Shown here piece by piece: positions 13,748 to 15,298 of a stretch of 59,137 nucleotides of DNA; position 1 is the stretch's first letter, and each line of letters begins with the position of its first letter. Source of the DNA: Flaviramulus sp. (GTDB taxonomy: Bacteria > Bacteroidota > Bacteroidia > Flavobacteriales > Flavobacteriaceae); the NCBI RefSeq assembly GCF_013001275.1, contig NZ_JABDMV010000073.1, forward strand, positions 1-59,137, in the 5' to 3' direction. The translations under genes were made by a program, and so were the position numbers. The notes under the pieces were generated by a model. That model was not told the origin of the DNA. It did no database searches and was given only the letters and a program-made list of their open reading frames with translations.

Positions 13748-13849
13748 CTAAATAAAAAATAAAAATATATTTATAGATATAATTGTAACAACTAAAACAA
13801 CTAAACCTATGTAACAATATTTCTGGAGAAGGTTATTTTCTTTTTCCAT
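13748..13849 (-). CDS. Putative 33-residue single-pass membrane peptide
   Basis: This is a short ORF with an ATG start and TAG stop. The first ten residues are polar (MEKENNLLQK) and the remainder, from about residue 12, is almost wholly hydrophobic (Ile, Val, Leu, Phe), long enough for one membrane helix. A bidirectional terminator lies 20 bases beyond its stop, and another hairpin lies upstream, so it would be a self-contained unit. I see no TAnnTTTG element close to it. The polar-then-hydrophobic layout is what a small membrane protein looks like, but an AT-rich antisense stretch could produce it by chance. Confidence 0.4.
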   Translation of the reverse strand: MEKENNLLQKYCYIGLVVLVVTIISINIFLFFI

Positions 13850-13889
13850 GGTATTTTAATTTAACTGGTTTAGGTATAGATTAACAAAT

Positions 13890-13922
13890 AAAAACTCCAC
13901 GCTATTAAAACGTGGAGTTTTT
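13890..13922 (-). terminator. Hairpin ending putative small RNA A
   Basis: AAAAACTCCACG pairs with CGTGGAGTTTTT across a nine-base loop. The T-run on the minus strand fits an intrinsic terminator; the symmetric flanks would also work on the plus strand. Confidence 0.8.
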
Positions 13923-13957
13923 AAAAAATCCCTCTAAATTTGAGTTGATTAATAGCA
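13890..13957 (-). ncRNA. Putative small RNA, copy A (about 68 nt)
   Basis: On the minus strand, TATCTTTA (a TAnnTTTG-like -7 element) is followed after three bases by TGCTATTAAT, taken as the 5' end. A purine-rich linker with AGAGGGA and a hairpin with T5 follow. The layout is shared with copy B at identical promoter spacing. The hairpin loop contains TTAATAGC, complementary to the 5' end. No convincing ORF is inside. The transcript is inferred, not observed. Confidence 0.4.
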
Positions 13958-13983
13958 GTATAAAGATATGGTACATTTCTGAC

Positions 13984-14013
13984 AAAAAAAATACGCACTT
14001 CTACTTATTTTTT
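13984..14013 (-). promoter_or_regulatory. Operator-like box A
   Basis: On the minus strand it reads AGTGCGTATTTT within a longer segment shared almost base for base with box B (14117-14146). The inverted-repeat form AAATAAG/GCGTATTT has one mismatch. It sits 15 bases upstream of the TAnnTTTA element of putative small RNA A, where an activator would contact polymerase. Confidence 0.5.
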
Positions 14014-14020
14014 GATTTTT

Positions 14021-14091
14021 AAAATGCGAAAGCTCCAAATCATAACAATTTGGAGCTTTCTTTAATTCTCCCTAAGAACTAATTAATAGCA
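14021..14091 (-). ncRNA. Putative small RNA, copy B (about 71 nt)
   Basis: On the minus strand TAACTTTA is followed after three bases by TGCTATTAAT, as in copy A. A linker with AGGGAGA follows, then a perfect 13-base-pair hairpin. The distance from box B to the -7-like element and to the 5' segment equals that in copy A, which suggests duplication. An alternative is that the hairpin is only the terminator of the upstream response-regulator gene. Confidence 0.4.
14028..14060 (-). terminator. Hairpin ending putative small RNA B or the regulator mRNA
   Basis: GAAAGCTCCAAAT (14028-14040) pairs perfectly with ATTTGGAGCTTTC (14048-14060) around a seven-base loop. The T-tract on the minus strand is interrupted (TTTCGCATTTT), so termination may be partial. 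Confidence 0.7.
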
Positions 14092-14116
14092 ACGTAAAGT
14101 TAGTTCAAAGAATTGT

Positions 14117-14146
14117 AAAAAAAAATACGCACTTCTACGTATTTTT
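14117..14146 (-). promoter_or_regulatory. Operator-like box B with perfect inverted repeat
   Basis: AAAAATACG (14121-14129) and CGTATTTTT (14138-14146) form a perfect inverted repeat with an 8-base spacer, overlapping the stop codon of the response-regulator gene. It lies the same distance upstream of a TAnnTTTA element as box A. A dimeric NarL/LuxR-type HTH protein is a natural candidate to bind it. Confidence 0.5.
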
Positions 14147-14777
14147 ATAAATGAGTTTTATTTAAACTTGCCCATACAGCTAAAGATGTGGGTTTGTTAT
14201 CTAAACCAAGTTTGCCAACAATATTACTGCGGTGTTTGTCAACTGTTCGAACAGAAATTGATAACTCATCAGCAATATCGTGACTTGTTTTGTTTTCAGA
14301 AATAAGAGTTACTATTTTTAATTCAGATTTAGTAAGTAATTTTAAAGTAGCTGGTTTATGGTTTCCATTATTTCCATTTAAATAAGAGGTAATTTCTTTA
14401 CTAAAATAAGGAGAGCCTTTTATAGCACTTTGTATACAAGTTTCAATTTCTTCTATAGCAAATTCTTTTAAAATATAGCCGTATACATTTAACGACTTAG
14501 CCTTATCATATAGTTCCTCTTCTTTATCAAAAGTGATTAGAATTATTTTGGTGGGCAAGTTGTTTTTTTTACATGCTTCAGCAATCTCTAAGCCTGTTAA
14601 ATAGGGCATTCTAATGTCTAGAATAGCTATTTCTGGTTTTAATTTTACAATTAGATTATAAGCTTGGTTGCCGTCTTCTGCGCTCCCTAAAATATTATAG
14701 CTTTTAGAAGTTAAAAAATCGGTCAGCCCCCGTAGCATCAATGGATGATCGTCTGCAATAACTATTGAAGTATTCAT
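14145..14777 (-). CDS. NarL/LuxR-family response regulator (orphan)
   Basis: This 210-residue two-domain regulator has an N-terminal receiver (residues 1-120) with acidic pair Asp9-Asp10, phospho-acceptor Asp54 (ILDIRMP) and conserved Lys in GYILKEF. A C-terminal LuxR-type HTH spans about 145-205 (LTKSELKIVTLIS...SVRTVDKHRSNI). No histidine kinase is adjacent, so its input is unknown. Forty-eight bases separate it from the upstream retropepsin-like gene, and that gap carries one AGTGCGTATTTT box. Boxes of the same sequence lie just downstream, suggesting autoregulation and control of the adjacent units. Confidence 0.9.
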   Translation of the reverse strand: MNTSIVIADDHPLMLRGLTDFLTSKSYNILGSAEDGNQAYNLIVKLKPEIAILDIRMPYLTGLEIAEACKKNNLPTKIILITFDKEEELYDKAKSLNVYGYILKEFAIEEIETCIQSAIKGSPYFSKEITSYLNGNNGNHKPATLKLLTKSELKIVTLISENKTSHDIADELSISVRTVDKHRSNIVGKLGLDNKPTSLAVWASLNKTHL

Positions 14778-14798: not shown

Positions 14799-14825
14799 AA
14801 TTGCTATTAAATTAAAATACGCACT
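14799..14825 (-). promoter_or_regulatory. Operator-like box C upstream of the response regulator
   Basis: The minus strand reads AGTGCGTATTTT directly after the TAG stop of the retropepsin-like gene, followed within four bases by TTAATAGCAATTAA. The second half-site of the inverted repeat is not well conserved here, and no TAnnTTTG element follows, so the site may act in autoregulation differently from boxes A and B. Confidence 0.45.
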
Positions 14826-15275
14826 CTAATAATTATTCAATTTTAAATATAAATATTTCTTTTCATAATCAATAATAGCTTTAGATTTTTTTAATATATC
14901 TGCACCAATAATACCATCAACTGGATTCGATTTATGGTTTATAAGCGCTGTATTAACATGTGTTAAATTAAATAAGACTAAAACAACTTTATCATTTTTC
15001 CACTTTCCTATTTTGACTTTATTTTGACTAGACATTTTGGTCTCCATATTAGTGGCTCCTGCACCTCCAGCTAAAATTTTTGAGTCTTTTACCTTAAGAT
15101 TAAAAACTTCAATCGCCTCGAAACCTACACAAGAATTTGAGGCTCCAGTGTCTAAAATAAATAAACCAGTTTTATCATTTAATTTCACTTTAATTTCAAA
15201 ATGATTTGTTTTTGTAAGGTGCAATTTAACTTTGGCGTAACCTTTCTCATGTAGAAATTCTTGTAGTGTTTCCAT
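14826..15275 (-). CDS. Retropepsin-like aspartic protease-fold protein
   Basis: This 149-residue protein has the clan AA signature LFILDTGASNS with catalytic-type Asp42, a glycine-rich flap-like segment (AGGAGA, near residue 70) and the second family motif DGIIGADIL. Retropepsin-like proteins work as homodimers, each giving one Asp. There is no signal peptide, so the cytoplasm is its likely place. The ATG at 15275 was chosen over the longer TTG frame because that TTG is the end of a TATATTTG promoter element. The response-regulator gene follows on the same strand. The substrate is unknown. Confidence 0.8.
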   Translation of the reverse strand: METLQEFLHEKGYAKVKLHLTKTNHFEIKVKLNDKTGLFILDTGASNSCVGFEAIEVFNLKVKDSKILAGGAGATNMETKMSSQNKVKIGKWKNDKVVLVLFNLTHVNTALINHKSNPVDGIIGADILKKSKAIIDYEKKYLYLKLNNY

Positions 15276-15290
15276 CAATTTAATTTTAAT

Positions 15291-15298
15291 CAAATATA
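15291..15298 (-). promoter_or_regulatory. Probable -7 element for the retropepsin-like gene
   Basis: TATATTTG on the minus strand lies 15 bases before the ATG at 15275. The response regulator may be transcribed from here as second gene. Confidence 0.5.

Follow-up and report, generated by a model that had tools for sequence, protein, structure and literature searches.

Sibling small RNAs of Flavobacteriaceae with predicted LuxR-type activators, probably pairing with the mRNAs of those activators and of a membrane-lipid operon

Two sibling units lie on the minus strand of the window (the whole 59,137-nt stretch of DNA analysed), with starts 134 nt apart, and they raise the question of what they encode, what could switch them on and what they might act upon. 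In unit A, GTGCGTATTTTTTTT is followed by 15 nt, TATCTTTA, TAC, TGCTATTAAT from 13957, AGAGGGA and a hairpin; unit B has the same 15-nt gap, then TAACTTTA, CGT, TGCTATTAAT from 14091, AGGGAGA and a hairpin. An earlier note had described these blocks with their order and spacing, and we located every one of them at these minus-strand positions. The upstream block is present too, although the note had only half of it: the full element is a palindrome, AAAAATACGTAGAAGTGCGTATTTTT, at 14121–14146, with a second copy 134 nt away at 13987–14012, and the palindrome count in the window was equalled in none of 100 window shuffles. The palindromic operator of unit B has its core, TACGTAGAAGTGCGTA, at 14126–14141 and its center at about −42/−43 relative to the RNA start, and that of unit A has its core, TAAGTAGAAGTGCGTA, at 13992–14007.

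Downstream of the operators, the promoter −7 boxes, TAACTTTA at 14095–14102 (unit B, of the Bacteroidetes TAnnTTTG type) and TATCTTTA at 13961–13968 (unit A, also of Bacteroidetes type), precede two predicted small RNAs of about 70 nt, all on the minus strand. Small RNA B (14019–14091) has the 5′ end TGCTATTAATTAGTTCTTAGGGAGAATT and matches our covariance model R1 at 14025–14090 with 82.2 bits, its 3′ end being placed from the terminator; small RNA A (13886–13957; 5′ end TGCTATTAATCAACTCAAATTTAGAGGGA) matches at 13887–13956 with 44.5 bits, and is the more diverged sibling. The sequence and the covariation in aligned RNAs place the terminator hairpins at 14028–14060 (unit B) and 13889–13923 (unit A). 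Each unit is therefore laid out as a palindromic operator (TACGNA-N4-TNCGTA), a promoter box (TAnCTTTA) and an RNA that starts with (U)GCUAUUAAU, forms a small hairpin whose loop is G-rich, and ends in a terminator that covaries. Two tandem small RNAs behind activator-dependent promoters, as the earlier note proposed, are the reading that best fits the sequence; the note recognized the units, but overlooked the palindromic operator, the adjoining response regulator, the other loci and the complementarity to mRNAs that are described below.

Directly upstream of the array, on the same strand, is a gene for a 210-aa NarL/LuxR-type response regulator (14145–14777, minus strand; receiver domain PF00072, 1.6e-22, and GerE domain PF00196, 1.1e-11, in Pfam), whose stop codon abuts the first palindrome, and whose product is the predicted activator of RNAs A and B. 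On the other side of the array are sucA and sucB, on the plus strand, and no histidine kinase gene is adjacent. Directly upstream of the regulator is a gene for a retropepsin-like aspartyl protease (14826–15293 in the window, minus strand), which also precedes the regulator in many related loci.

Using the regulator protein as query, we collected 80 named Flavobacteriaceae loci that encode an orthologue, from genera that include Flavivirga, Algibacter, Tamlana, Hyunsoonleella, Lacinutrix and Bizionia. At least one unit lies downstream of the regulator in 80 of 80 loci, with 1 to 6 per locus, exactly two in 55 loci, and 171 in total; these orthologous loci share descent, so the numbers are not phylogenetically independent counts. 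The position of the operator is conserved in the 80 loci, and the promoter box is conserved as TAncTTTAC across the 171 units. The distance from operator to GCTATTAAT is identical in 130 of the 171 units, and in nearly all of the remaining units with the strict operator pattern it is within 2 nt. Recurring in this way, the geometry of the units is far beyond chance, and the near-invariant spacing puts the operator center near −42, the position of a class II activator. The operator pattern TACGYANNNNTRCGTA is found genome-wide 14 times per strand versus 22 for the reversed control, and with no excess over that control we claim no wider operator regulon.

The consensus RNA opens with GCUAUUAAU; next come a small hairpin, whose loop is rich in purines (for example UAGGG or GAGAGAG), and the terminator. 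Nucleotides 1–8 are largely unpaired (mean 0.91). Changes on both sides are seen in 12 of the 13 pairs of the terminator helix among 37 aligned RNAs, with totals reached in none of 500 shuffles; statistical support for hairpin 1 is modest (mean z of −1.15), with compensatory changes visible by eye in, for example, L105, L109, L113 and L114. Model R1 has matches in 76 of the 250 family genomes searched. With this recurrence, the family-wide spacing and the terminator covariation, the reading passes the refutation test set by the earlier note, which was a loss of spacing and hairpins outside this strain. No Rfam 15 family, Flavo-1 included, matches the RNA units at the gathering threshold, which tRNA alone reaches. 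Judged from these searches, the RNAs are an undescribed family widespread in marine flavobacteria, and the promoter box, operator and covarying terminator that belong to each of the 171 units suggest independent transcripts.

Additional RNA loci lie beside other LuxR-type regulators and have different palindromes. In the commonest of these, the RNA stands behind a regulator of about 256 aa with PAS and GerE domains and the palindrome TACTCAAwTTGAGTA, at the same distance. The genome from which the window comes has two additional loci: C120, which is of this kind, and the more diverged C150, with another PAS-plus-GerE regulator and TACCAC...GTGGTA. Across all loci in the set, helices with DKH or EKH go with TACGnA in 190 units and those with DTH go with TACTCAAwTTGAGTA in 23, with no crossings, such that helix and operator match by class as would be expected if each regulator had diverged together with its operator. 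We infer activation by the regulator from the operator position near −42 and from this correspondence between operator and helix-turn-helix.

The 5′ end of the RNA, GCUAUUA, has its complement, TAATAGC, in two groups of mRNA leaders, those of the regulator and those of a LUD-cdsA-psd operon. TAATAGC is present in 46 of the 80 regulator leaders, clustered at −24 to −32, which puts it at the top of 420 letter permutations, the next being found in 9 of 80; the RNA is thus complementary to the mRNA of its own putative activator near the start codon, as in a feedback module. In the window the site is at 14803–14809 on the minus strand (−32 to −26), and among the 40 window open reading frames (ORFs) of at least 150 aa, the regulator alone has TAATAGC in its leader. 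The local regulator leader pairs weakly (−9.4 kcal/mol, with 26 of 300 shuffles equally strong), and the C150 regulator leader of the same genome pairs at −18.0 kcal/mol, stronger than all 500 shuffles. A hybrid test on the regulator leaders put 36 of the 80 loci within 5% of shuffles, which lends support but is less sharp than the k-mer test. Many regulator leaders also have CUCCCU or CUCUCU just 5′ of the start codon, complementary to the G-rich loop of the RNA; in class-1 leaders the order UAAUAGC then CUCCCU misfits one continuous duplex, whereas in a third regulator class (L177–L180) the order of seed site and loop site fits one. The leaders of the 256-aa class-2 regulators are without a TAATAGC site. 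Many leaders of the 256-aa PAS-GerE regulators (second loci in L149–L187, and L030 and L031) have TCTCTC a few bases before the ATG, and this, being complementary to GAGAGA of the RNA loop, might be a further pairing site.

The second leader set was reached by pattern search, which led to a LUD-domain gene (PF02589) that is the first of LUD-cdsA-psd and lies behind ftsH; the operon codes for the LUD-domain protein, a phosphatidate cytidylyltransferase and a phosphatidylserine decarboxylase, and we recognized cdsA, psd and ftsH by eye in their sequences. Of the 26 ingroup LUD leaders, 21 have TAATAGC at −16 to −18, that of the window's genome among them, and the next permutation is found in 4 of 26; the leader is otherwise unconserved around the site, and most of the exceptional leaders are one base off TAATAGC. 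Pairing of the LUD leaders with the canonical RNA averages −16.8 kcal/mol versus −8.5 when shuffled, and for the leader in the window's genome it is −17.1 kcal/mol, stronger than all 500 shuffles. In four outgroup genomes without a genuine RNA, the LUD leader has neither the site nor the pairing; in G006 and G009 the LUD site is present and the RNA was not detected. Among leaders of other genes, TAATAGC was seen in 1 of about 370 examined. An unpaired conserved seed is thus matched by conserved complements in unlinked mRNAs, as for a base-pairing small RNA.

The exact 9-mer ATTAATAGC was rejected as a target signature, 1 of 93 distinct sites checked being plausibly at a start codon, that of another response regulator gene, where codon bias could account for it. 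A NarL-type response regulator gene in L248 (G000:C81) has ATTAATAGC over its first codons (ATGATAAATTTATTAATAGCAGAC), which could be a target or could reflect codon bias or coincidence. The composite TAATAGC..CTCCCT has no genome-wide enrichment; with a start codon added, it picked out the LUD operon as well as a T9SS adhesin-like gene, the latter in two species of one genus only. In a large, secreted adhesin-like gene of one genus (L329 in G014 and L330 in G268), TAATAGC..TTCTCCCTAAT stands immediately ahead of the start and fits both the seed and the loop of the RNA. A search of G232 for TTAATAGC..ATG gave the LUD gene as the sole clear leader match among the approximately 60 of 115 sites examined. 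Separately, TTAATAGC lies 25 nt 5′ of the ATG of a pyridoxal-phosphate acyltransferase-like gene in L458 (G000:C78, leader before 291), whose product we take by eye to be of the KBL/serine palmitoyltransferase type; if real, it would be a second lipid-synthesis target.

Could the RNAs instead sequester an RNA-binding protein through their AGGGA loop, like CsrB or RsmY, under a NarL-family regulator of the GacA type? A GerE-type regulator, a palindromic upstream site and an ANGGA-like loop would all suit such a sponge, yet siblings that keep the 5′ 9-mer have UAUGG, UUUUAUU or GAGAG in place of the loop, which is commonly AGGGA, and it is the 5′ end that has conserved complements in leaders. 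CsrA itself was above the cut-off in 0 of 40 relatives, with a control that was positive in E. coli, B. subtilis and T. maritima; with CsrA not found there and ANGGA not conserved in the loop, we rejected a CsrA sponge and regard protein sequestration as improbable.

The region downstream of the array suggests another reading. An unannotated ORF for a 33-aa membrane peptide with a single helix (MEKENNLLQKYCYIGLVVLVVTIISINIFLFFI) is at 13748–13849 on the minus strand, and 58 of the 80 related loci have a similar one. The units could accordingly be a leader or attenuator array before this gene, with premature termination at each hairpin setting read-through; in most loci the array is followed on its own strand by the ORF, into which the last unit extends in some cases (L116, L117 and L101). 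However, each unit has an operator, promoter and terminator of its own, the ORF of several relatives has its own operator without an RNA, and no such ORF was seen at the second-locus copies, which adjoin other genes, so that attenuation appears very improbable. The operator directly precedes the ORF in L061, L104, L105, L108 and L111, and in relatives the ORF is probably a co-regulated gene under the same operator family. Where the operator drives the ORF directly in these five loci, GCTATTAAT is missing, which argues for the 9-mer being part of the RNA, not of the promoter. We therefore find it scarcely credible that the blocks are regulator-binding DNA sites only, with GCTATTAAT a downstream promoter element and not an RNA seed: the 9-mer is invariant across units and a similar start is found in some mRNA-driving units (L096 3746 and L087), but those five ORF-driving operators are without it, its complement is fixed at the start codons of unlinked genes, and the terminator helices covary.

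We thus return to base pairing, and consider it very probable that these are activator-dependent sibling small RNAs that repress their own activators and LUD-cdsA-psd by pairing near the start codon. We propose that the response regulator (14145–14777) binds at the palindromes in the manner of a class II activator, switching on both RNAs; each RNA of about 70 nt would keep its 5′ end, (U)GCUAUUAAU, unpaired and pair with (U)UAAUAGC in leaders just 5′ of the start codon, helped at some targets by pairing of the G-rich hairpin loop with a C-rich patch, and the pairing would block translation. With activator mRNAs as targets, this would be negative feedback, and LUD-cdsA-psd would be the second target. 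For the signal, a membrane or envelope cue is a reasonable guess, given the operon targeted and the membrane peptide encoded alongside. RNA copies behind other LuxR-type regulators and operators would let several signals converge on one seed. We see an even chance that this amounts to a convergence hub. In such a hub, at least three kinds of LuxR-type regulators (a response regulator with a receiver domain, and one-component proteins with PAS domains) would feed a seed-sharing RNA that represses them and the ftsH-linked LUD-cdsA-psd, and every regulator would have a diverged operator of its own that overlaps its stop codon or comes after it; if true, membrane lipid synthesis would be under post-transcriptional control by this RNA across the family.

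To our knowledge, the base-pairing RNAs known from Bacteroidota other than Bacteroides are very few, and the open-access literature yielded a single tested regulatory RNA from flavobacteria. The present family, defined by sequence and structure and found in about one-third of the sampled Flavobacteriaceae genomes, comes with likely activators, operators, a seed and two likely targets, and suggests that phospholipid synthesis is under the control of an RNA. It offers activator/operator pairs of several specificities, and every step is testable in culturable genera such as Algibacter or Tamlana.

Among systems to compare, LuxO is sigma54-dependent, and OmrA and OmrB are Hfq-dependent and governed by OmpR, a winged-helix regulator. 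Rfp18 of Flavobacterium psychrophilum, a conserved small RNA that acts on mRNAs, pairs through its third stem-loop and affects metalloproteases (PMC9723704), has three stem-loops versus two hairpins here, and is compared by description only. FopS of Bacteroides, as far as the consulted portion of PMC11697453 describes it, is RbpB-bound, has 14 paralogues and a shared 41-nt R1 motif, and represses SusC-like transporter mRNAs; it is likewise a multicopy base-pairing family in Bacteroidota, but, in a comparison by description only, that portion mentions no LuxR-type activator module beside it. Alongside FopS and Rfp18, the present RNAs are a further conserved small RNA family of the phylum. Other cases in which a single response regulator governs several RNA copies are LhrC1-5 of Listeria under LisR (PMC5880928) and the csRNAs of Streptococcus under CiaR (PMC11697453), which differ from the flavobacterial RNAs in phylum, seed, structure and targets. 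OmrA and OmrB of E. coli are two similar tandem RNAs under OmpR with negative feedback on the regulator mRNA (PMC4211561), and the flavobacterial RNAs share the tandem arrangement and, as predicted here, the control by a response regulator and the feedback; their sequence is unrelated, however, and their genes directly follow the regulator gene in up to six copies. The Qrr RNAs of Vibrio are siblings with a shared core that are activated by LuxO and pair back on the regulator mRNA (PMC4211561), and sibling RNAs, response regulator activation and pairing on the activator mRNA are all predicted here as well. In contrast to Qrr, to whose families there is no Rfam match at the gathering threshold or at E ≤ 1, the RNAs have unrelated sequences, belong to a different phylum, and have NarL/LuxR-type regulators with class II-like operators; moreover, the same seed stands behind several regulator classes with different operators, which is the unusual feature. 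By analogy, then, the flavobacterial RNAs would work like Qrr with LuxO and OmrA/OmrB with OmpR, without being members of those families.
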